The notes under the pieces: generated by a model
What the model was told of the DNA's origin: nothing
What the model saw: only the letters and a program-made list of their open reading frames with translations
Databases searched by the model: none
Assembly: GCA_027600665.1 (NCBI GenBank)
Contig: JADGJL010000005.1
Location: forward strand, 154,656-218,655
Length of the DNA stretch: 64,000 bases
Direction of reading: 5' to 3'
Source of the DNA: Irineochytrium annulatum
Taxonomy: Eukaryota; Chytridiomycota; Chytridiomycetes; Chytridiales; Chytridiaceae
Part shown: positions 14,458 through 31,291 of the stretch, piece by piece
Layout: each line of letters begins with the position of its first letter
How positions within the stretch are numbered: position 1 is the stretch's first letter
Translations under genes and position numbers: made by a program

Positions 14458-14602
14458 TGCAATCATCTCCTTAGCGTGTTTGTTTGCTTTGAGAAACCAT
14501 TACACCTGAAGCAAAGGATTGAATCTCGGTCACCGTTTTTACAGCTTTTCCTGTTTTGCCTATGTTATGATTAAGCTTGAATATGTAAGGGAGGGGTCTC
14601 AA

Positions 14603-14884
14603 GTGGACTGGTTCACACTGGGCAATATGATTACACGCATCCGTATCGGGCAAAAGGCGTCTACACCCGGTTTCTCCCGTACCGTCATCCGTCGTCCGGA
14701 CGGTTTATTTTGGGTAGGCGGAATATGGTCCGGACAAGTTGTACAGTTGCGGGATTTCCTTTTTTCCGATATATGGACCATCTATGATGATGAGGAAACA
14801 GAGCAGTGGCTTGAATTCCGTAGTCAAGTTGAACAGAAAGAGCGGGAAATGATAGAGAACCAGTTCGAAGACTTGCGTGATTAA
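14603..14884 (+). CDS. hypothetical protein, 93 aa
   Basis: The 93-residue protein starts with GTG at 14603, behind a strong GGGAGGGG. It reads DWFTLGNMITRIRIGQKAST, then VIRRPDGLFWVGGIWSGQVV and an acidic helical C-terminus (EQKEREMIENQFEDLRD). No membrane segment or signal is visible. An in-frame ATG 28 codons upstream has no ribosome site. No family recognised. It lies 150 bases before the sensor kinase on the same strand, but no functional link is visible. Confidence 0.6.
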   Translation: MDWFTLGNMITRIRIGQKASTPGFSRTVIRRPDGLFWVGGIWSGQVVQLRDFLFSDIWTIYDDEETEQWLEFRSQVEQKEREMIENQFEDLRD

Positions 14885-15036: not shown

Positions 15037-16935
15037 ATGAAAAATGTGCCCAAAGCTATCGTCATCTTATGGATGAGTGTATTGATTATTCTAGGTATGC
15101 CACATGGAATGGTCTTTGCAACTACAGGAGCGATTCAGCAACCTGCATCCATTACAGGATGGGAAGTAAAATGGGGGAACGTTGACGATCAAGGGTTCAT
15201 AAGTGAGGTTAAGGGAACAGATGAGATATGGGAAAAGCAGGGCATCGATAAGTTAGAGTATAGCAATACGGATCGATCGAGTTCCTTATGGACTCGCCTG
15301 ACCATCCCTGAATTGAGTGAAGAAAGCTCAGCCATTCGATTTGAGAACATTAAAGGCAATCATATTGTTATCTATCTGGAGGACCGCAAGGTCTACGAGA
15401 ACTACCATTACAATTATGATAATAATGCGGTGTTACTACCCTTATCCAGCGAAAATTCGGGTGACACGCTCTATGTATGGTCGCAAAATGAGAAAGGTCG
15501 TCTGGGCATACAAGGTACTGTTCAAGTTGGACCTTATGCTGCGTTACAGGAGAGATATATTCATAACGGGCTTATTGATGTCATTTTGGGTGCGACCTTT
15601 GTTTTCACAGCGATTACGATGCTGAGTTGTACGTTCTTCCTTGGCAAATTCCATAAGGGATTGTGGATCTCACTATGCATGGTGATGGGTTCCATCGGCA
15701 CAATGATCATCACGTATTCGCAATTTTTGTATACGTTCTATCAGGTATATGGTGACCTGTATTCGGTAGTCTTTGATCTGGCTATGCTGCTGGGAATGCC
15801 AGCGCTATGTTATTTTTTTGAGCAGATTATCGGGCCGGGACTGCATGGTATCTTCACCAAACTGCGAAAAATAACATTCATATATTCAGTTATCGCTGTG
15901 TTCTCTCTATTTATCTACGTTACTTCAGGTGGGCAATGGGAGTTTCTCTACAATCTGCTCGTACAGCGTGTGGTCGGTATGGTGCTGGTCATCCTGCTGA
16001 CAATTCTGTTGGTTGGAACCATCGCCAAAGCACTGCAACGAAATCGGGAAGCCATCCTGCTTGCGACAGGATTCGGTACATTTGCCTTGATCAGTGTGGC
16101 TGAACTGTTGTGGTATTATCAGCGGAGTGGGACGTATCATCTGTTATGGTGGAAATGGTCCATGGTTGCATTTGTGATCTCGCTGATTGCCATTCTCGGA
16201 AGTCGGTTTGCCGAAAAACACACCAAAGTGCTGGAGTATTCCAAGGAACTGGAGTTATTCAACAATGAGTTGCAGCGATCCGAGAAGATGGAGATTATTA
16301 GCGAATTGGCAGCTTCCGTTGCCCATGAAGTACGTAATCCGCTTCAGGTGACAAGAGGGTTCCTGCAACTTATGACAGAACAGGAAGACAACAAAAATAA
16401 GGGATATGTGCGTATTGCACTGGAGGAACTTGACCGTGCTTCGGGCATTATCACGGACTTTCTTACCTTTGCCAAACCTGAATTCGACCATATTATCTCG
16501 CTTAATATCTCGGATGAGTTCAATCATATTGAAGGTATCCTTGTACCGATGGCTAATCTGGAAGGTGGCAAAATCACCACTGATATTCCGCCAGATTTAT
16601 ATATTCGGGGCAATTCCTCGAAGTTTAAGCAGGCTTTTATCAACATTATCAAGAACAGTATTGAAGCTCTGCAGGGACAAGGCCAGATTGATATCTGGGC
16701 TTACAAGCAGGATGGGGTTATTAAGGTGCATGTCAGGGATAATGGAGAGGGAATGGATGAGGAAGCACTCTCCCGGTTGGGCGAGCCTTATTTCTCCAAT
16801 AAAATCAAAGGCACTGGTCTCGGCATGATGGTGACATTCCGAATTGTTGAAGCGATGCAAGGACAGATCAGCTTTACAAGTACCAAAGGGGTAGGAACAG
16901 AAGCGGTTGTATCTTTTGCTGAGTTCGTCGAATGA
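15037..16935 (+). CDS. multi-pass membrane sensor histidine kinase
   Basis: The 632-residue protein has a signal sequence (about 7-29) and an extracellular beta-rich domain of roughly 145 residues resembling 7TMR-DISM sensor domains. A run of about seven membrane helices (about 180-395) and a short coiled linker follow. The cytoplasmic kinase has the H-box AHEVRNPLQVTRGFL with phospho-acceptor His430, N-box IIKNSIEAL, and G-boxes DNGEGMDEE and KGTGLGMMV. This HisKA/HATPase arrangement is that of sporulation-type kinases (KinB/KinA group), which usually feed Spo0F. No response regulator is adjacent. The gene faces, tail to tail, the NHLP peptide and isoprenoid-enzyme genes, so it may be their receptor, by analogy with ComP. 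Start follows GAGGTG. Confidence 0.85.
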   Translation: MKNVPKAIVILWMSVLIILGMPHGMVFATTGAIQQPASITGWEVKWGNVDDQGFISEVKGTDEIWEKQGIDKLEYSNTDRSSSLWTRLTIPELSEESSAIRFENIKGNHIVIYLEDRKVYENYHYNYDNNAVLLPLSSENSGDTLYVWSQNEKGRLGIQGTVQVGPYAALQERYIHNGLIDVILGATFVFTAITMLSCTFFLGKFHKGLWISLCMVMGSIGTMIITYSQFLYTFYQVYGDLYSVVFDLAMLLGMPALCYFFEQIIGPGLHGIFTKLRKITFIYSVIAVFSLFIYVTSGGQWEFLYNLLVQRVVGMVLVILLTILLVGTIAKALQRNREAILLATGFGTFALISVAELLWYYQRSGTYHLLWWKWSMVAFVISLIAILGSRFAEKHTKVLEYSKELELFNNELQRSEKMEIISELAASVAHEVRNPLQVTRGFLQLMTEQEDNKNKGYVRIALEELDRASGIITDFLTFAKPEFDHIISLNISDEFNHIEGILVPMANLEGGKITTDIPPDLYIRGNSSKFKQAFINIIKNSIEALQGQGQIDIWAYKQDGVIKVHVRDNGEGMDEEALSRLGEPYFSNKIKGTGLGMMVTFRIVEAMQGQISFTSTKGVGTEAVVSFAEFVE

Positions 16936-17012
16936 CGAACTCACAGAAGCATACAGCGGCTTTTTTTGTCCCTACCCCTAATCACTTACGTTACCAATTT
17001 AACTCACCCGAT

Positions 17013-17255
17013 TTAACTTCTCCAAGGTCCGCAATTCACATCATAATTTACTTTGGAAGGATTGGGAGGTATGACAAGAACATAATCATTCTGCTGCTCC
17101 TCAACGGTACGTACCTGAATGTGCTCCGGGATTATGATTCCGAAAGCTTCACGAAGCGCTTGCTTCGGATTGGAGTGCAATTGTTGTCTGAAATGCTCGT
17201 CAGTCCAAGCCTTTTCAATAATATCCTCATGCAACGTTTTCTCTGATACCATCAT
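17013..17255 (-). CDS. NHLP-leader peptide precursor with C-terminal Trp (ComX-like)
   Basis: The 80-residue product has a leader very like nitrile hydratase alpha-type (NHLP) RiPP leaders: IIEKAWTDEHFRQQLHSNP, then KQALREAFGIIIPEHIQV and a closing YVLVIPPNP. After this comes a short tail of about 13 residues ending N-C-G-P-W-R-S, with Trp78 third from the end. The start is set at 17255 since AAGGGA lies nine bases ahead; two or six codons either way are possible. It sits 54 bases after the isoprenoid-type enzyme gene and is surely co-transcribed. I infer that it is a modified peptide precursor, perhaps prenylated on Trp as in ComX. It could also be a small nitrile-hydratase-like domain of other use. 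Confidence 0.6.
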   Translation of the reverse strand: MMVSEKTLHEDIIEKAWTDEHFRQQLHSNPKQALREAFGIIIPEHIQVRTVEEQQNDYVLVIPPNPSKVNYDVNCGPWRS

Positions 17256-17309
17256 CGTCAACATTCCCTTCATATTTGAAATTAAACTGAATCAGCTTAG
17301 TCCTTATGC

Positions 17310-18257
17310 TCATAATTCCAACTGTTGATCGCTGAGCCAGTGATGAAACCCACCTTGGAGGAGCCGTTTCTTCCGTTGTGTAATGTCCTGAACGGCTTGT
17401 ACTAAAGTGCTGCATAAATAAGAATCAAACACCTCGAGATGCGATATCCCTAAGTTAGACGATGTTAATGTACGATTATAGTGAAATGCAATGTCTACAT
17501 AAGAGTTCATGAGTTGAGTGTTGTATACATTGTCATGTATACGTTCGCTAAGAGGATGAGCGGGATAGTTGTGATTCAGTGCTGCGGATATGTGGGAGAG
17601 GTAGCTGTTGTAGTTTCCATGCACAGCATCTTGATGCGTATCTGTGAAGTCATCGGTCATCTGGAGTGTCATGAGTGTAATGTTGATGGCAGAACATACC
17701 GGGATGATCCGCTCGGATTGATTCAACAGAAGGAGTGCACCCGTAGCTCCGATGAGTAGAGGGGCAGCCTTTTGCGCAATCAACAAGGGATTCTGTTGAA
17801 AATAATCAATGAAATGCTCACCCGTAACACTCACGGCCCAATCCACTACATATTGTCTGAAATAGATCCAGAACGTGGAGGAAAGATCGAATAATGCCGA
17901 GTAAGATTGAAGTGCATCCATGTAATATAAATTGCCCAGGGACAACTTCAGAGCGGCATTCTCCGGTTGTTCATCCATCACGTCGTCCTGATTCAGAAAA
18001 TATAACATGTGAATCAGACAGGCTGTACTTAATTGGTGTGCTTTCTCCTGAGGCAGTTGATCCGAGTACTGCATCCAAAGTGGGATGATATACCCGATAT
18101 AACTGTGCCCCGAATCTCGTAACAGGGGATTAACCGAATGAAGTTGCTCCAATGCATGTCCTGACAAGGGTTCGGGATATTCCCGTACGAGTTGTTCCGC
18201 TGAAGCAAAAACGACCTCCAGATCGGAGCTAAACGGATCTAACCAATCTTTCCGCAT
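17310..18257 (-). CDS. class 1 isoprenoid biosynthesis-fold enzyme (ComQ-like)
   Basis: The 315-residue, mostly helical protein carries two Asp-rich motifs at the spacing of all-trans prenyl transferases. The first is QDDVMDE (Asp91, Asp92, Asp95). The second is TDDFTDTHQDAVHGNYNSYL (Asp202, Asp203, Asp206), like the DDxxD of polyprenyl synthases and ComQ. These bind magnesium and a prenyl diphosphate. Length is close to ComQ (about 300). The ATG at 18257 follows AGGAAGGAC, and a TATACT -10 lies 70 bases upstream, so the open frame reaching back to 18548 is not the start. The NHLP peptide gene follows directly. I infer peptide prenylation. A small-molecule terpene synthase is the alternative. 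Confidence 0.6.
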   Translation of the reverse strand: MRKDWLDPFSSDLEVVFASAEQLVREYPEPLSGHALEQLHSVNPLLRDSGHSYIGYIIPLWMQYSDQLPQEKAHQLSTACLIHMLYFLNQDDVMDEQPENAALKLSLGNLYYMDALQSYSALFDLSSTFWIYFRQYVVDWAVSVTGEHFIDYFQQNPLLIAQKAAPLLIGATGALLLLNQSERIIPVCSAINITLMTLQMTDDFTDTHQDAVHGNYNSYLSHISAALNHNYPAHPLSERIHDNVYNTQLMNSYVDIAFHYNRTLTSSNLGISHLEVFDSYLCSTLVQAVQDITQRKKRLLQGGFHHWLSDQQLEL

Positions 18258-18476: not shown

Positions 18477-19214
18477 ATGAACTTGAAATGGAAAACATGG
18501 ATGGCAGCCGGATTGGCAGCCGTAGTTATAACAGTAGCAACAGGACATGTAGCATTCGCTGATTCAACGGCTCGGGCTGAGGAATATGGTGGTGCATCAA
18601 AAACTTCTTCCTCCGGCAAACCAGCGAAGCCATGCATGCAGGCAGGACACGGTCTGTTCATGATTGGTGAAACGGCAGACTTGCTTGGCATTGGACTTCG
18701 GGATCTGAAAGAACAGATGGAACTTGGCAAGACGTTGTCCCAGATTGCGAAAGAGCGTAAGGGACTTAGTGAGGAGCAGTTATTGCAGAAGTTGAAGCCT
18801 ACACTTGCACAGCGTCTGGATCAAGCAGTAGAAGAGGGGTGTCTCACCAAGGATCAGGCTGCAGCCACGAAGGCGGACATGGATACCAAGTTAAAAAAGG
18901 TCATCAATACCCCGCTGCGTGATTTGCGGCGTGAATTTGCCCACCATGGCAAACGTCCCATGGTGGATAAAGGCGAAATTGCCCGGTTTATTGGAGTCAC
19001 CCCTGCTCAACTTCATGAACAGCTTCAGGGAGGGAAATCCTTGGCTGAGATTGCTCAGGCAAAAGGCATTAGCGAAACACAGCTGGTTAACAAGCTGAAA
19101 GAACAATTAACAGGTGATCTGAAGAGATTTGTGAATCAGAAGGGCAACGTACATCCAGCCCCAGGTCCCCAGGAACCTGTTCCGGGACGATCAACGTCGA
19201 GCGAAGCAAAATAA
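18477..19214 (+). CDS. secreted protein with two internal helical repeats
   Basis: The 245-residue protein has a signal peptide (about residues 1-28, cleaved near AFA-DS). Two related helical repeats follow: DLLGIGLRDLKEQMELGKTL with SQIAKERKGL (about 66-125), and RFIGVTPAQLHEQLQGGKSL with AEIAQAKGIS (about 165-220). Both follow the pattern xLGI-xxLxxQLxxGKxLxxIAxxxG, seen in many secreted Bacillales proteins of unknown function. The C-terminus is Pro-rich. Ribosome site GGAAAGGCGG. It is divergent from the isoprenoid enzyme gene and shares its 220-base upstream region. It ends in a strong terminator. Function unknown. Confidence 0.65.
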   Translation: MNLKWKTWMAAGLAAVVITVATGHVAFADSTARAEEYGGASKTSSSGKPAKPCMQAGHGLFMIGETADLLGIGLRDLKEQMELGKTLSQIAKERKGLSEEQLLQKLKPTLAQRLDQAVEEGCLTKDQAAATKADMDTKLKKVINTPLRDLRREFAHHGKRPMVDKGEIARFIGVTPAQLHEQLQGGKSLAEIAQAKGISETQLVNKLKEQLTGDLKRFVNQKGNVHPAPGPQEPVPGRSTSSEAK

Positions 19215-24710: not shown

Positions 24711-27710
24711 TTGAACATGAAGGGGAGCTGGTGGAGACGAGTCGCCATGATCGCGTTATCGGCAGGATTATTGGCAGGGAGTTTCTCGATGAACACAGGA
24801 CTTCGTAAGGCGGATGCGGCCGCCGGAGATCAGAACTATGCTGAAGCACTGCAAAAAGCCATTTACTTCTATGAAGCCCAGCGTTCGGGGCCATTACCAG
24901 CAAATAATCGGGTCGAATGGCGTGGTAATTCAGGCATGCAGGATGGGTCTGATGTAGGCGTCGATCTGACCGGAGGGTGGTATGATGCCGGGGATCATGT
25001 GAAATTCGGCTTTCCGATGGCTGCTTCCGCTACGATGCTCGCTTGGTCTGTCGTGGAATACGGCGACGGATATGAACAGGCAGGACAACTGGAGGAGATC
25101 AAGGATAATATCCGATGGGCGACCGACTATTTTATGAAAGCGCATACCAAACCAAATGAATTATGGGGACAAGTCGGAGCAGGTAATACGGATCATGCCT
25201 GGTGGGGACCGGCAGAGGTCATGCAGATGAACCGTCCTTCGTTCAAGATTGATACTACCTGCCCAGGCAGTGATCTGGCGGCAGAAACAGCGGCAGCACT
25301 GGCAGCGTCGTCGATTGTATTTGCAGATGATGACCCGGCATACTCGGCCAGATTGCTCCAACATGCCAAAGAGCTGTACAACTTTGCAGATACGTATCGT
25401 GGGGAATACACCGATTGTATCACGGATGCCGCAGCGTTCTATAACTCGTGGACAGGATACGAAGACGAGCTGGCATGGGGTGGAGCATGGTTATATTTAG
25501 CCACTAATGATAGCGCTTACTTGTCCAAAGCCATTGCAGCTACGGACCGTTGGTCTTCTAGCGGAGGCTCAGCCAATTGGCCGTATACCTGGACACAAGG
25601 TTGGGACAGTAAACATTATGGTGCCCAGATCCTGCTTGCCCGGATTACGTCCAACTTGAACATGCCGGAGGCGACGAGATTTATTCAGTCGACAGAACGC
25701 AACCTGGATTACTGGACAGTTGGAGTTAATGGGACACGAGTCAAGTATACGCCAGGAGGTCTTGCGTGGCTGGATCAATGGGGCTCGCTCCGTTATGCAG
25801 CGAATGCAGCCTTTATTTCTTTCGTATACTCCGACTGGGTCAGTGATCCTGTGAAAAAATCAAGATATCAGGATTTCGCCGTCTCGCAGATGAATTATAT
25901 TCTGGGTGATAACCCGCGTCAGAGCAGTTATGTGGTCGGATACGGGCAAAATGCACCCCAACATCCGCATCATCGAACCGCTCACAGTTCGTGGCTGAAT
26001 AACGAGGATATCCCGGCTAACCATCGCCACATTCTGTATGGTGCCATGGTCGGCGGACCGGATGCATCAGATGGATATACCGATGATATCGGAGATTATG
26101 TGAGCAATGAGGTGGCAACTGATTACAATGCCGGTTTTACTGGTGCACTGGCAAAGATGAATCTATTGTTTGGTCAGAATCATCAACCTCTTGCGAATTT
26201 CCCTGCACCTGAGGTCAAGGGTGAGGAGTTCTTTGTGGAAGCTGCCATCAAATCATCCGGTTCCAATTATACGGAAATCCAGGCACAGCTTAATAATCGT
26301 TCCGCTTGGCCTGCCCGAATGGGAGATCAACTTTCTTTTAAATATTTCCTGGATTTGAGTGAAGTGTATGCTGCTGGACGTACTGTATCGGACGTTCATG
26401 TGACCACCTCCTATACGGAGGGAGCGACGGTATCCCAACCGGTTGTGGTGAATGCAGCCCAGCATATCTATGCGATTACGGCGAACTTTGGTAATACGAA
26501 GATCTATCCCGGTGGGGAAGGGAATTATCGCAAAGAAGTACAGTTCCGCATTACAGGCCCACAGGGCGCATGGAATGCAAACAATGACCATTCGTTCCAG
26601 TCGCTGACCACAGGCAATCCTGTGAAGAGCATCTACCTTCCAGTCTATGATGCCGGAGTGAAGGTGTACGGACAGGAGCCTGGTGTGGCACCAGTTACGG
26701 TTCCAAGCGCACCTGCTAGCGTGCAGGCTGTGGCGGGAAGCAGTCAGGTTAACCTGACCTGGACAGCTGGTTCCGGGGCTGAATCGTATACGGTGAAGCG
26801 TTCCGAGGTAAGTGGAGGGCCATATACCACTGTCGCGACGGGTGTGAATGGATTGACCTATACGAACACGGGGCTGACGAATGGAACCACTTATTATTAT
26901 GTAGTGACTGCCGTGAATTCAGCAGGGGAATCATCGGGTTCTATGCAGGTGTCGGCTACGCCGCAAGCAGCTTCAACAGTGCCGGGAGCACTGACTTTAA
27001 GTGGGACGGCTGGCAATGCACAGTCGGTCCTGACCTGGACAGCAGCTTCGGGCGCTACCAGCTATAAGGTACAACGTTCGATGGCAGGAGGAACATACGC
27101 GGATGTGGCAACCGGATTGTCCATATTGACTTACACGGATACGACTGCGCTGAATGGCACCACGTACAATTACCGGATTGCAGCCATGAATGCGAACGGG
27201 CAGACGCTGTCCAATGTCCTGGCACTGACGCCTTCTGCACCTCCGGTGACGACGGATACACTCGAAGTGCAGTACCGCAGTGGAGGGTCCGGGAATTCAA
27301 GCAATGCGGTGACCCCGCAGTTCAATGTGAAAAATACCGGCACACAGGCAATCGATCTTAGTACAGTGAAGATCCGATATTATTTTACCAAGGATGGTAC
27401 CGATGATATGACGTTCTGGTGTGATTATGCCCAGATGGGTACGGCCAATGTTGAAGGAACATTTGTCGCGGTGAATCCGGCGAAGGGTACAGCTGATACG
27501 TATCTGGAGATCAGCTTCAAGTCCGGAGCAGGCAGTTTGGCCGCTGGAGCAGAGACCGGCGTGATCCAGACACGCTTTTCCAAAAATAACTGGAGCAATT
27601 TCGATCAAAGTAATGACTATTCCTATGATGCCTCCAAGACGGCTTTTGCCGCATGGAACAAGGTAACCGCGTATCAGGGAACCAACAAAGTATGGGGCTT
27701 GGAGCCGTAA
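24711..27710 (+). CDS. secreted GH9 cellulase with CBM3c, two Fn3 and CBM3
   Basis: The 999-residue enzyme is modular: signal peptide (1-37), GH9 catalytic domain (about 42-490), a CBM3c module (about 500-655), two fibronectin type III domains (about 668-845) and a C-terminal cellulose-binding CBM3 (about 850-999). Catalytic residues are visible: the DAGDH motif (Asp92, Asp95) and the general acid Glu467 in VSNEVATDYN. GH9-CBM3c enzymes are processive endoglucanases that work with GH48. The TTG at 24711 stands eight bases after GAGGAG; an ATG two codons later is possible. A GH48 gene follows 300 bases on. The Fn3-Fn3-CBM3 tail is nearly the same in that gene. Confidence 0.95.
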   Translation: MNMKGSWWRRVAMIALSAGLLAGSFSMNTGLRKADAAAGDQNYAEALQKAIYFYEAQRSGPLPANNRVEWRGNSGMQDGSDVGVDLTGGWYDAGDHVKFGFPMAASATMLAWSVVEYGDGYEQAGQLEEIKDNIRWATDYFMKAHTKPNELWGQVGAGNTDHAWWGPAEVMQMNRPSFKIDTTCPGSDLAAETAAALAASSIVFADDDPAYSARLLQHAKELYNFADTYRGEYTDCITDAAAFYNSWTGYEDELAWGGAWLYLATNDSAYLSKAIAATDRWSSSGGSANWPYTWTQGWDSKHYGAQILLARITSNLNMPEATRFIQSTERNLDYWTVGVNGTRVKYTPGGLAWLDQWGSLRYAANAAFISFVYSDWVSDPVKKSRYQDFAVSQMNYILGDNPRQSSYVVGYGQNAPQHPHHRTAHSSWLNNEDIPANHRHILYGAMVGGPDASDGYTDDIGDYVSNEVATDYNAGFTGALAKMNLLFGQNHQPLANFPAPEVKGEEFFVEAAIKSSGSNYTEIQAQLNNRSAWPARMGDQLSFKYFLDLSEVYAAGRTVSDVHVTTSYTEGATVSQPVVVNAAQHIYAITANFGNTKIYPGGEGNYRKEVQFRITGPQGAWNANNDHSFQSLTTGNPVKSIYLPVYDAGVKVYGQEPGVAPVTVPSAPASVQAVAGSSQVNLTWTAGSGAESYTVKRSEVSGGPYTTVATGVNGLTYTNTGLTNGTTYYYVVTAVNSAGESSGSMQVSATPQAASTVPGALTLSGTAGNAQSVLTWTAASGATSYKVQRSMAGGTYADVATGLSILTYTDTTALNGTTYNYRIAAMNANGQTLSNVLALTPSAPPVTTDTLEVQYRSGGSGNSSNAVTPQFNVKNTGTQAIDLSTVKIRYYFTKDGTDDMTFWCDYAQMGTANVEGTFVAVNPAKGTADTYLEISFKSGAGSLAAGAETGVIQTRFSKNNWSNFDQSNDYSYDASKTAFAAWNKVTAYQGTNKVWGLEP

Positions 27711-27762
27711 CTGGCTGAATGTCATAAGTCGAAGAGCAGCATGGGCAGACCAACAGCACTTA

Positions 27763-27985
27763 TAGAGGATGTTCAAAAAGTTCGCTTTTGATTACGAAGG
27801 ATGCCTGGTGGCATCATCAGCATCGAATATGGAATTCAGCCGAAATAAGTGGGAGGCTTACGAAGAATGTTTCCTTGGGAAACATTGTGGTCGCTCACGT
27901 AGTTTTCCCTACGCTGCGCTACGCCATTTCTAGCTTCATCCCATCTTCTCGGTACTGAAAACCACTCTTTTTGAACACGCATTTA
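27763..27985. repeat. MITE-like inverted-repeat element C between the cellulase genes
   Basis: GTTCAAAAAG at 27771-27780 and its exact complement CTTTTTGAAC at 27967-27976 bound a noncoding block of about 220 bases, with TATA-rich flanks on both sides. Inside is a perfect small hairpin (GATGCC-TGGT-GGCATC, 27800-27815) and another around TTTCC-TTG-GGAAA. Outer limits are approximate. It fills the gap between the GH9 and GH48 genes. Confidence 0.6.
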
Positions 27986-28015
27986 TATTCCACTATTCCA
28001 GGGAGGTATATATCA

Positions 28016-31000
28016 ATGTTGAAATCAGCTGCGAAAAAAAGTTTAACAGCCATGCTGGCGGGTACTGTCATGTTGACCGGATACACCGGACTGTGGGCAG
28101 GGCCGCAAACGGCACACGCCGCAGATCAGGCCATCGAGATTCAGTCCGACAGCATCAATGAAGCCCGGTTTTTGCAATTGTATGAACAGTTGAAAGATCC
28201 GGCAAACGGATATTTCTCGCCAGAGGGTCTACCTTATCATTCCATTGAGACCCTGCTGAGTGAGGCCCCGGATTATGGTCATATGACGACGTCCGAGGCA
28301 TACAGTTACTGGCTATGGCTAGAGACCATGTATGGTCACTATACGGGAGACTGGTCCCAACTGGAAGCAGCATGGGACAGTATGGAAAAATTTATTATCC
28401 CGGTCAACGAAGGTGACGGCAAGGAAGAGCAGCCTACGATGAGCTCATACAACCCGAACAGCCCTGCTACGTATGCAGGGGAAAAACCATTCCCGGATCA
28501 ATATCCATCGCAACTTAATGGGCAGTATGCAGCGGGTAAAGACCCGATTGATGCTGAACTGAAGGCGACCTATGGTGACAATCAGACTTATCTCATGCAC
28601 TGGCTGGTGGATGTGGATAACTGGTATGGATACGGTAACCTGTTGAATCCATCCCATACGGCTACCTATGTGAACACATTCCAGCGTGGGGAGCAGGAAT
28701 CTGTGTGGGAAGCGATTCCGCATCCATCCCAGGATGATAAATCCTTTGGTAAGGCAAACGAAGGCTTCATGAGCTTGTTCACAAAGGAAAATCAGACGCC
28801 GTCAGCGCAATGGCGTTACACCAACGCAACGGATGCCGATGCACGTGCTGTTCAGGTTCTGTATTGGGCGAAGGAGATGGGATACAACAACCCGGAATAT
28901 CTGGATAAAGCGAAGAAGATGGGCGACTACCTGCGCTATGGCATGTATGATAAATACTTCCAGAAAATTGGAAGTGCTAAGAACGGTACACCGACGCCGG
29001 GTACAGGTAAAGATTCCAACATGTATCTCATGGCTTGGTATACGTCATGGGGCGGTGGTTTGGGTCAAGGTGGGGATTGGGCTTGGCGCATTGGAGCGAG
29101 TCACACCCATCAGGCTTATCAAAACCCGGTTGCAGCCTATGCCTTGTCTGACCCGGCTGGCGGCCTGATTCCTGAATCAGCAACAGCGAAGGCAGATTGG
29201 AATGCCACGCTCAAACGTCAGCTGGAATTCTACACATGGCTGCAATCCCATGAAGGAGCCATTGGCGGGGGAGCAACCAACAGTATCGGTGGTTCCTATG
29301 CGGCCTATCCGGCAGGAATTAGTACCTTCTATGACATGGCCTATCAAGAAGCACCCGTGTATCGTGACCCGGATTCCAACACATGGTTTGGATTCCAGGC
29401 ATGGCCGCTGGAGCGTGTAGCCGAGATGTATTATATTCTTGCCGAGAGCGGTGATCTGTCCTCTGAGAACTTCCAAATGGCCAAGAAAGTGATCACGAAG
29501 TGGATTGACTGGTCCAAGGACTATGTATTTGTAGGTGAGCGTCCGGTGACGGATGCGCAAGGCTACTATCTGAATGCGGCAGGACAGCGCATTTTGGGTG
29601 GAACCAATGTTCAGGTAGCGACAACACCGGCTCCGGGAGAGTTCTGGATTCCGGGTGGTCAGGAATGGCAGGGTCAACCGGACAAATGGAACGGCTTCAG
29701 TTCGTTTACGGAAAATCCGAACTTCCGTGTAACGACCAAAGATCCCGTGCAGGACACAGGAGTTCTGGGAAGTTACGTTAAAGCACTGACCTTCTTCGCG
29801 GCAGGGACACAGGCGGAGAACGGCACACTTAGTGTGAAAGGTCAAGAAGCCAAGGATCTGGCGGAAGCTCTGTTGGATACTGCTTGGGATTACAATGATG
29901 GTGTGGGTATCGTTACCGAAGAAGAGCGTAAAGACTACTTCCGCTTCTTTGCCAAAGAGATCTATATCCCGGCCAACTGGTCCGGAACCTTTGGTCAAGG
30001 CAATACGATTCCAGGTACAGCAGGTGTACCTTCCGATCCAGCGAAAGGCGGCAATGGCGTATATATTGGATACTCCGACCTGCGCCCGGCCATCAAGCAA
30101 GATCCGGCATGGGCTTACCTGGATAACCTGTACAAAACGTCGTATAACCCGACCACGAAGCAGTGGGAGAACGGAGCACCTACCTTTACGTATCACCGCT
30201 TCTGGTCACAGGTGGATATGGCCACAGCTTATGGAGAGTATGATCGACTCCTTGGAGATTCCGATAGTCCGGGAGTGGAAGTGCCCGGTGCCCCTGCTGG
30301 CGTAACAGCAACCGGAGGAAGCGAGCAGGTGGTTCTGAATTGGAACGCAGCCGCTGGTGCAGCCTCGTATACTGTGAAACGTGCAGAAGTGAACGGTGGT
30401 CCTTATACGTCTGTAGCAACAGGGGTCACAGGATCAACATTCACGGATACGGGCTTGACCAACGGTACAACGTATTATTATGTCATCACTGCGGTGAATG
30501 CCGCAGGTGAGTCTGCACCGTCGACACAGGCATCTGCAACACCACTCGCAGGTGTCGTTGTGCCAGGCGCATTCAACCTTACTGGAACGGCTGGGAATGC
30601 CCAGGCGGTACTGACATGGACAGCATCGACTGGAGCAACAAGTTATAAGGTACAGCGTTCGGTAGGCAACGGGGCGTATGCTGATCTGGCAACGGGATTG
30701 ACTGCACTGACGTATACCGATGCTACAGCGGTGAATGGTACGGCATATAATTACCGAATCGTAGCCGTGAATACGAGTGGTCAGACGAATTCGAATGTCT
30801 TGGTATTGACCCCATTAGCCCCTCCGGTCACAACGGGAGCACTTGAAGTACAATATCGCAATGGTGGTTCAGGAACTTCAGGCAATGCGATCACTCCACA
30901 GTTCAATGTGAAGAATACAGGTACAACTGCTGTGGACTTGAGCAAAGTGAAGCTCCGGTATTATTTCACGAAGGATAGTGCGGCTGATCTGAGTTTCTGG

Positions 31001-31291
31001 TGTGATTATGCCCAGATTGGAAGCAGTAACGTGGAAGGACATTTTGTTTCGATCGATCCGGCCAAGGGCACGGCAGATACCTATCTGGAGATTGGATTCA
31101 AATCGGGTGCGGGCAGTTTGGCAGCGGGTGCCGAGACCGGAATTATCCAGGTGCGCTTCTCGAAAAACAACTGGACGAATTTTGATCTAACGAATGATTA
31201 TTCCTTTGATTCCACCCAAACGGCCTTCAGTGCTTGGACGAAAGTGACAGCTTATCAGGACGGCGCGAAGGTATGGGGAATTGAACCTTAA
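28016..31291 (+). CDS. secreted GH48 cellobiohydrolase with two Fn3 and CBM3
   Basis: The 1091-residue protein has a signal peptide (about 1-37, ending AHA-AD), a GH48 domain (about 40-740), Fn3 (about 756-845), Fn3 (about 848-935) and CBM3 (about 940-1091). The GH48 hallmark SEAPDYGHMTTSEAYSYWLW is present, where Glu94 of TTSEA is the expected catalytic acid. GH48 enzymes attack cellulose chains processively from the reducing end and are the key partner of GH9 endoglucanases. The ATG at 28016 follows GGGAGGT by eight bases. A TTG 15 codons earlier lies inside repeat C and is rejected. It may be read through from GH9, as no clear terminator separates them apart from hairpins in the repeat. 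Confidence 0.95.
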   Translation: MLKSAAKKSLTAMLAGTVMLTGYTGLWAGPQTAHAADQAIEIQSDSINEARFLQLYEQLKDPANGYFSPEGLPYHSIETLLSEAPDYGHMTTSEAYSYWLWLETMYGHYTGDWSQLEAAWDSMEKFIIPVNEGDGKEEQPTMSSYNPNSPATYAGEKPFPDQYPSQLNGQYAAGKDPIDAELKATYGDNQTYLMHWLVDVDNWYGYGNLLNPSHTATYVNTFQRGEQESVWEAIPHPSQDDKSFGKANEGFMSLFTKENQTPSAQWRYTNATDADARAVQVLYWAKEMGYNNPEYLDKAKKMGDYLRYGMYDKYFQKIGSAKNGTPTPGTGKDSNMYLMAWYTSWGGGLGQGGDWAWRIGASHTHQAYQNPVAAYALSDPAGGLIPESATAKADWNATLKRQLEFYTWLQSHEGAIGGGATNSIGGSYAAYPAGISTFYDMAYQEAPVYRDPDSNTWFGFQAWPLERVAEMYYILAESGDLSSENFQMAKKVITKWIDWSKDYVFVGERPVTDAQGYYLNAAGQRILGGTNVQVATTPAPGEFWIPGGQEWQGQPDKWNGFSSFTENPNFRVTTKDPVQDTGVLGSYVKALTFFAAGTQAENGTLSVKGQEAKDLAEALLDTAWDYNDGVGIVTEEERKDYFRFFAKEIYIPANWSGTFGQGNTIPGTAGVPSDPAKGGNGVYIGYSDLRPAIKQDPAWAYLDNLYKTSYNPTTKQWENGAPTFTYHRFWSQVDMATAYGEYDRLLGDSDSPGVEVPGAPAGVTATGGSEQVVLNWNAAAGAASYTVKRAEVNGGPYTSVATGVTGSTFTDTGLTNGTTYYYVITAVNAAGESAPSTQASATPLAGVVVPGAFNLTGTAGNAQAVLTWTASTGATSYKVQRSVGNGAYADLATGLTALTYTDATAVNGTAYNYRIVAVNTSGQTNSNVLVLTPLAPPVTTGALEVQYRNGGSGTSGNAITPQFNVKNTGTTAVDLSKVKLRYYFTKDSAADLSFWCDYAQIGSSNVEGHFVSIDPAKGTADTYLEIGFKSGAGSLAAGAETGIIQVRFSKNNWTNFDLTNDYSFDSTQTAFSAWTKVTAYQDGAKVWGIEP

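Follow-up and report, generated by a model that had tools for sequence, protein, structure and literature searches.

Does a stretch of DNA deposited under the name of a chytrid fungus encode a system that makes and senses a prenylated peptide? The stretch (hereafter the window) comprises 64,000 nucleotides of Irineochytrium annulatum contig JADGJL010000005.1 (assembly GCA_027600665.1, positions 154,656 to 218,655), and the question is raised by three of its genes. A PalP-type sensor histidine kinase of 632 residues (15037-16935, plus strand) has HisKA and HATPase_c domains with His430. On the minus strand, a PalQ-type tryptophan prenyltransferase of 315 residues (17310-18257), with the Asp motifs and residues equivalent to those of Paenibacillus alvei PalQ, is followed by a PalX-type precursor peptide of 80 residues (17013-17255), which has a nitrile hydratase-like leader peptide (NHLP) and a short C-terminal core ending NYDVNCGPWRS. 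The kinase and peptide genes stand tail to tail with 77 bp between their two stop codons. A preliminary description drawn from the letters of the window had located the three genes, the Asp positions, His430 and a Trp third from the end of the peptide correctly.

Our reading, to which we assign a probability of roughly 0.6, is that of a PalP-PalX-PalQ cassette: the locus would produce a prenylated peptide, sense it in a ComQXP-like manner and feed the sporulation phosphorelay. The preliminary description had proposed a ComQXP-like system as well. Its gene types hold, but the system type had already been published as PalP-PalX-PalQ of P. alvei (Miyata, Ito, Fujinami 2023; PMC10853753), and signalling, i.e., the sensing and output steps, is the part that we infer from sequence. 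The enzyme type has been known since 2023; a part in signalling is proposed here, and the predicted prenylation site lies at an unusual place in the peptide. The accessible text of PMC10853753 covers the chemistry and tests no signalling role. Among the open PubMed Central papers listed by our searches, we found neither a signalling test or proposal nor a family-wide account of PalX-PalP.

The PalQ Enzyme

P. alvei PalQ prenylates the C-terminal Trp of the NHLP peptide PalX in vitro (PMC10853753). The window enzyme has its Asp motifs at D91/D92/D95 and D202/D203/D206, and D91xxxD95, Q199 and D202xxxD206 are equivalent to D89/D93/Q197/D200/D204 of P. alvei PalQ. The first and second Asp-rich motifs (FARM and SARM) and the Gln preceding the SARM, which together define the PalQ family, are all present. 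In the published P. alvei PalQ model, the Gln equivalent to Q199 contacts the indole. All 152 distinct PalQ rows share D91, D95, Q199, D202, D203, D206 and D210, and position 92 is Asp in 125 and Glu in 24 of these. Two P. alvei-type enzymes (L062 and L065), which have the published PalQ residues at the published numbers, share 35% and 33% identity with the window enzyme. The predicted structure adopts the trans-prenyl-diphosphate-synthase fold, as expected from the isoprenoid fold assigned in the preliminary description. No Pfam, NCBIfam or PHROG family scores above its cut-off for the window enzyme, and polyprenyl_synt is not listed for it in a Pfam scan up to an E-value (E) of 1; among ten enzyme homologs only P0036 touches that family (15.4 bits, cut-off 27). 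By analogy with the P. alvei enzyme, PalQ very likely acts on PalX in the window, too.

Some PalQ records are unusual in themselves. At L057, PalQ and PalX are fused in one frame of 436 residues, probably by a frame shift near the PalQ end. A partial PalQ (P0026, 77% identity over 54% of the query) on an 838-base contig is filed under Salmonella enterica, which most likely reflects contamination. PalQ matches with one in-frame stop each (G343, G366, G367, G328, G373, G032, G496) are perhaps decaying copies or sequence errors.

Distribution and Linkage of the Three Genes

In the family of Paenibacillus sp. OK003, an enzyme profile search found PalQ in 326 of 394 genomes; at the level of the order it found the enzyme in 123 of 198 genomes and at that of the class in 26 of 299, all 26 being already among the genomes of the family search. 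The loci compared number 171 (56 of the window clade and 115 others), with some genomes entering twice via two collections; dropped before this count were the window's own locus (L001), duplicates (L024-L026) and the 30 loci L115-L144, of which 26 genomes were fetched again and G042, G165, G219 and G009 were not. The fetched stretch contains PalX at 166 of the 171 loci and a kinase with the PalP sensor at 168; outside the window clade these counts are 111 and 112 of 115. The three genes thus co-occur in relatives as anticipated, and an enzyme without the peptide, named beforehand as grounds for refutation, is rare: five loci have no PalX call, and among these L057 is the open reading frame (ORF) fusion and L182 has a match in a longer frame.

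The layout is conserved as well. The gene order Q> X> P< is the commonest (132 of 171 loci), and PalX and PalP are convergent at 164 loci, with 3' ends -34 to 198 bp apart (median 63 bp); a tail-to-tail pair is missing at L057, L069, L110, L164, L182, L188 and L190. PalX and PalP were found in 20 of 20 PalQ-positive genomes, which were hand-picked and several of which also supplied rows of two search profiles. In 20 PalQ-negative genomes (20 of the 68 named in the family search, not a random draw), no PalX-like match is better than E 2e-7, with one weak NHLP match in G110. A terpene synthase or ordinary prenyl-diphosphate synthase that stands beside a peptide by chance is ruled out, because the peptide accompanies the enzyme at nearly all loci and strong PalX matches are lacking in the PalQ-negative genomes.

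The PalX Peptide and Its Tryptophan

Window PalX ends NCGPWRS, with Trp78 as the third residue from the end. It matches the NHLP leader model TIGR03793 above cut-off (64.4 versus 50.9 bits, E 6.5e-18) and therefore counts as an NHLP precursor of a ribosomally synthesized and post-translationally modified peptide (RiPP). No ComX family is listed for it in a Pfam scan at E up to 1, which agrees with the earlier suggestion that an NHLP leader takes the place of the ComX type, and PHROGs give no match. Pfam domain PF27793 is precomputed for the PalX proteins P0037-P0042 and is not reported by the Pfam scan of window PalX. Among 39 PalX picked for diversity, all match TIGR03793 at E up to 0.01 and all keep the Trp78 position, the sole fixed residue of a variable core (entropy of the core without Trp 2.69 bits, leader 1.33). 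In 182 of 183 PalX-like ORFs, which include one chance ORF (the second of L096) and one shifted tail (L062, one of the two six-residue cases), the last Trp has 0-6 residues after it: none in 63 ORFs, a single one in 54, two in 56, three in five, four in two and six in two. Window-clade peptides make up 51 of the 56 two-residue and four of the five three-residue tails (W-R-S, W-R-D, W-R-S-F and so on) and form one of several tailed clades.

The window-clade peptide is under strong purifying selection: its pooled ratio of nonsynonymous to synonymous rates (dN/dS) is 0.03 for 11 sequences whose synonymous sites are near saturation, and median pairwise identity within the clade is 94% for PalX and 75% for PalQ (253 pairs, 23 sequences). 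The 56 window-clade loci have 55 PalX, every one of which keeps both Trp and Cys75. The preliminary description had expected homologous tails to conserve Trp or Cys; the Trp is conserved, but a Cys within the last 14 residues occurs in only 5 of 128 PalX-like ORFs outside the window clade. Cys75 was considered as the modified residue and is disfavored; as it is clade-specific, Trp is the site to watch. We consider it highly probable that Trp78 is prenylated by PalQ.

The two residues after Trp78 leave room for a different account of window-clade PalQ. Ala residues after the Trp abolish P. alvei PalQ activity (PMC10853753), and the accessible part of a review gives low PalQ activity on an internal Trp flanked by Gly. 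In the simulation of P. alvei PalQ, K39 makes occasional contact with the peptide carboxylate, and a basic residue at the equivalent position is absent in 38 of 38 window-clade rows. Window-clade PalQ moreover has a long stem of 1.26 changes per site on the PalQ tree, from which L157 and L192 were excluded as short and 17 of 169 sequences were dropped as identical to others. Together with the fixed Cys75, these observations could mean that the W-R-S tail blocks the enzyme, and that either Cys75 is prenylated or PalQ has drifted to another role. We regard this as very improbable. The Trp is as fixed in the clade as Cys75, Q199 is invariant, and tails of 1-6 residues also occur elsewhere in the PalQ family; the PalQ tree (144 of 152 rows labeled) has nine changes between C-terminal and non-terminal Trp. 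As 200 shuffles gave a mean of 46.1 changes and a minimum of 36, the kind of tail changes rarely and follows the clades of the enzyme. The basic residue is kept in 34 of 46 tail-bearing rows outside the window clade; as a switch for C-terminal Trp it was rejected, since the pattern is not significant on the tree. Furthermore, two genomes with one PalQ match each, five candidates having been scored per genome, carry two peptides of unlike tail (lengths 0 and 1 in G342, 3 and 1 in G350), which argues for tolerance of the tail or for trimming.

The tails conflict with the strict C-terminal rule, which is known for one enzyme. PalQ of tailed clades may accept an internal Trp, or the tail may be trimmed first. 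Because of its two residues after the Trp, we file the window locus as a variant and not as a strict PalX. From native tailed peptides one would predict PalQ enzymes that are not bound by this rule, a useful property for peptide lipidation.

Peptide and Kinase as a Pair

The pairing of PalX with PalP persists where the number of pairs or the orientation of the enzyme gene changes. At L080, L081 and L090, two PalX-PalP pairs follow a single enzyme, at L181 a second pair lies upstream, and at L201 the enzyme is flipped and the peptide and kinase genes are still tail to tail. Pro versus non-Pro two residues before the Trp changes three times on the PalP tree (22 loci, 25 pairs), compared with a shuffle mean of 8.6, and none of 1000 shuffles is as low. 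At the three two-pair loci, the paired kinases stand apart on the tree, and the partners of A/S-x-W peptides share one clade. Peptide-kinase pairs duplicate as units, and peptide class follows receptor clade. Such pairing and co-segregation are as expected of ligand-receptor pairs, and PalP is likely to be the receptor of the PalX product.

Arrays of two to five PalX genes with unlike cores stand beside one PalQ and one PalP at L174, L193-L195 and L197. They are possible multi-peptide signal blends.

The PalP Kinase and Its Probable Output

Hydropathy and a structure model with a mean predicted local distance difference test (pLDDT) of 73 give PalP a signal helix, an extracellular beta domain (residues ~37-166), seven transmembrane (TM) helices (~167-395), HisKA and HATPase_c. 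HisKA (PF00512) occurs in 34 of 34 PalP, and HisKA_3 is not among the 25 families listed of the 31 that match them. Searched against PDB sequences, the kinase core finds Geobacillus KinB as its best match (3D36, E 5.9e-54; next match 4.9e-27). This agrees with the earlier description of the kinase as HisKA/KinB-like and not HisKA_3. A DISM-like sensor seems likely from Pfam 7TMR-DISM_7TM, which 21 of 34 PalP, but not the window kinase, match up to E 1 (best value 3.5e-9). The 50 Foldseek matches listed for the kinase are all to kinase cores and so give no fold for the sensor.

PalP is an orphan. Its domain scans reveal no receiver domain, and no response regulator adjoins the cassette, as had been noted before: the neighboring genes at 14519-14884 and 18477-19214 match no such family, and a regular-expression search of 121 loci of ~10 kb found a receiver (REC) motif in seven, the window stretch not among them. 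Specificity residues point to a phosphorelay. The residues QVGFQL are present in 171 of 186 PalP copies, with three further copies lacking the motif, and they recur in 12 kinases without PalQ and PalX (L205-L216) and in a PalQ-distant second copy in G156 (L217). In the accessible text of PMC6136694, the corresponding residues of Spo0F kinases are TAGFQL (KinA), TVGFQL (KinB) and TGGFQL (KinD), those of Clostridium kinases that phosphorylate Spo0A directly are NVSAQV, NISAQL and SVGLQL, and verified sporulation kinases are described as orphans whose catalytic domains are not markedly alike. PalP shares five of six residues with KinB, and both the orphan status and the KinA-E-like residues are found in it. 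As a control, 30 other H-boxes were read at the HisKA loci that score best in two related genomes (30 loci), and GFQ stands at the matching sites in 2 of them. P. polymyxa has the sporulation kinases Kin1038 and Kin1377 (PPE_01038 and PPE_01377; PMC7538429 and PMC6429003), which reportedly rescue sporulation in B. subtilis; a link between them and PalP is conceivable. The KinB-like core and the specificity residues lend weight to the earlier proposal of Spo0 output, which stays a prediction; we lean towards Spo0F as the PalP target.

The same genes could also be taken for a RiPP cluster unrelated to communication, in which PalX yields a prenylated peptide with antimicrobial or membrane activity, and PalP, as a kinase for stress or self-sensing, regulates its production. 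NHLP leaders belong to RiPP precursors, and the array at L174 has five PalX with one PalP. PalQ prenylation increased the activity of antimicrobial peptides according to the accessible part of a 2026 review, which fits this account. Against it, the loci lack a regular exporter (a regular-expression search found an ABC ATPase motif in 5 of 121; proteases and immunity genes not searched for), and the window-clade PalX is almost invariant, unlike most bacteriocins. The specificity residues of the kinase are moreover of the Spo0F type, and PalP persists in genomes that have no PalX. We think an antimicrobial function of the cassette unlikely.

Kinases Without Peptide and Enzyme

PalP is not confined to complete cassettes. 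It is kept (E 2e-84 or better) without PalX in 12 of the 20 PalQ-negative genomes; one of the others has a weak PalP match (9e-8) and seven have none. At these loci (L205-L216), the kinase stands without PalQ and PalX. L205-L208 keep the window gene order, with a small gene upstream and 245-residue-type and acyltransferase-like genes downstream, and fall inside the window clade of the kinase tree (15 rows, support 100; inner fork 89), of which L209-L216 form the sister group (support 94). These positions indicate a minimum of one loss of enzyme and peptide, with two being probable, and L205-L208 look like cases of signal loss by former producers. Solitary PalP could mark receiver-only lineages or a receptor with another ligand or input; both fit.

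The latter is the basis of a further alternative, namely that PalP senses an unrelated cue and PalQ-PalX is an accessory neighbor module whose product merely modulates it. Besides the 12 genomes, the sensor of the solitary kinases supports this: its dN/dS, computed for four of the 12 (L205-L208), is 0.11-0.15 compared with 0.06-0.12 where the signal genes are present, i.e., slightly higher and still constrained. The duplication of peptide and kinase as units, the match of peptide class with receptor clade and the nesting of L205-L208 within a clade of producers speak for a PalX-derived ligand instead, and we judge the unrelated cue improbable.

Several observations nevertheless count against a cassette that makes and senses a prenylated peptide. 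PalP kept without PalQ and PalX may answer to something else, and linked duplication and inheritance alone, without binding, could contribute to the co-segregation. Window PalX has two residues after the Trp, where P. alvei PalQ fails with an Ala extension, and in a fold of PalQ and PalX as one in-frame reading the enzyme part folded well and the PalX tail was left undocked (residues 385-414, pLDDT <50). The window kinase has no 7TMR-DISM_7TM match, and the four matches among ten PalP are all below the Pfam cut-off. By fold, KinB and ZraS tie as the Foldseek match of the kinase, and NCBIfam scores AtoS (155.5 bits) over KinD (136.9 bits) for it, both far below cut-off.

Proposed Mechanism and Significance

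In the cassette reading, PalQ would bind the NHLP leader of PalX and put a C5-C15 prenyl group on indole C3 of Trp78, upon which a pyrroloindole ring would close, as shown for the P. alvei homolog. Leader removal would free a short lipidated C-terminal peptide, here presumably about (Y)DVNCGP-W*-RS; cell lysate cleaved recombinant P. alvei PalX (PMC10853753). The prenyl peptide would be exported by an unlinked route and, as gene pairing and co-segregation suggest, might be sensed by the seven-TM kinase PalP. PalP may then pass phosphate to Spo0F and so tune Spo0A, sporulation and related behavior, a step to which the KinB-like phosphotransfer residues point.

Tentatively, and at odds slightly short of even, most Paenibacillaceae could share one ancestral prenyl-peptide quorum-sensing system that feeds the phosphorelay and in which a seven-TM receptor kinase would sense a short peptide prenylated on Trp. 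Duplicated peptide-receptor pairs would have become separate private channels, all depending on one promiscuous prenyltransferase; an internal Trp would be accepted in some lineages (that of the window included), and others would be receiver-only after loss of the signal genes. We know of no family-wide peptide signal for sporulation or social behavior in Paenibacillus. A 2014 genome comparison of P. polymyxa (PMC4209062) found no comQXPA homologs. If the reading is true, PalX would represent another widespread prenyl-peptide language beside the first, a peptide ligand would be known for a bacterial sensor kinase with seven TM helices, and in bacteria of importance for soil and plants the Spo0 decision would depend on population density.

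Neighboring Genes and Source of the Contig

Upstream of PalP, both the window (14519-14884) and the PalP-only loci L205-L216 have a small gene of ~93-137 residues marked by the motif GQKASTPGxxRTV(I/V)R; Pfam and NCBIfam scans give no match for the window copy. A promoter and terminator scan was uninformative (six promoter-like sites versus 8.0 expected, three terminator-like sites versus 2.3). Two adjoining large secreted cellulase-like genes at 24711-31291 have tails that we take to be fibronectin-type and cellulose-binding-like. The assembly that carries the window amounts to 26.9 Mb in 1082 contigs, well above a Paenibacillus genome, and is possibly a mixed or contaminated assembly that includes a Paenibacillus contig.

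Comparison With Known Systems

The closest known system is PalP-PalX-PalQ of P. alvei, which has the same three gene types, an NHLP precursor, a Trp near the C-terminus and a clustered histidine kinase. The last residue of P. alvei PalX is Trp, whereas window PalX ends in Trp-Arg-Ser, a kind of tail that the P. alvei enzyme refuses, and window-clade PalQ lacks the basic residue equivalent to K39.

ComQ-ComX-ComP-ComA of Bacillus subtilis shares a trans-prenyl-synthase-like enzyme, a precursor with an internal Trp and a multi-TM sensor kinase. ComP is of the HisKA_3 type, whereas the window kinase has a HisKA/KinB-type core. The window pair fits neither a ComX-family precursor nor a ComQ-type enzyme by sequence model: the precursor has an NHLP leader, unlike ComX, and the second Asp-rich motif is intact in the window enzyme but missing in ComQ (PMC10853753). 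In ComQXPA, ComA is adjacent and the four genes lie on one strand; in the window, the kinase gene is on the opposite strand and no ComA is linked. Moreover, window-clade PalX is nearly invariant, in contrast to the pherotype diversity of ComX (accessible text of PMC4408185).

With the sporulation kinases KinA-KinE, PalP shares the orphan status, specificity residues near those of KinB and the best PDB match of its core. Its first specificity residue is Gln, not Thr as in KinB, and it differs from KinA-KinE by its N-terminal seven-TM sensor, its extracellular beta domain and its linked peptide gene. The 7TMR-DISM sensor kinases, such as RetS and LadS, share with PalP a signal peptide and an extracellular beta domain, followed by seven TM helices and then the kinase. 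PalP differs from them in its weak match to the family model, in that its scans show no receiver domain, and in its proposed ligand, a lipidated peptide.

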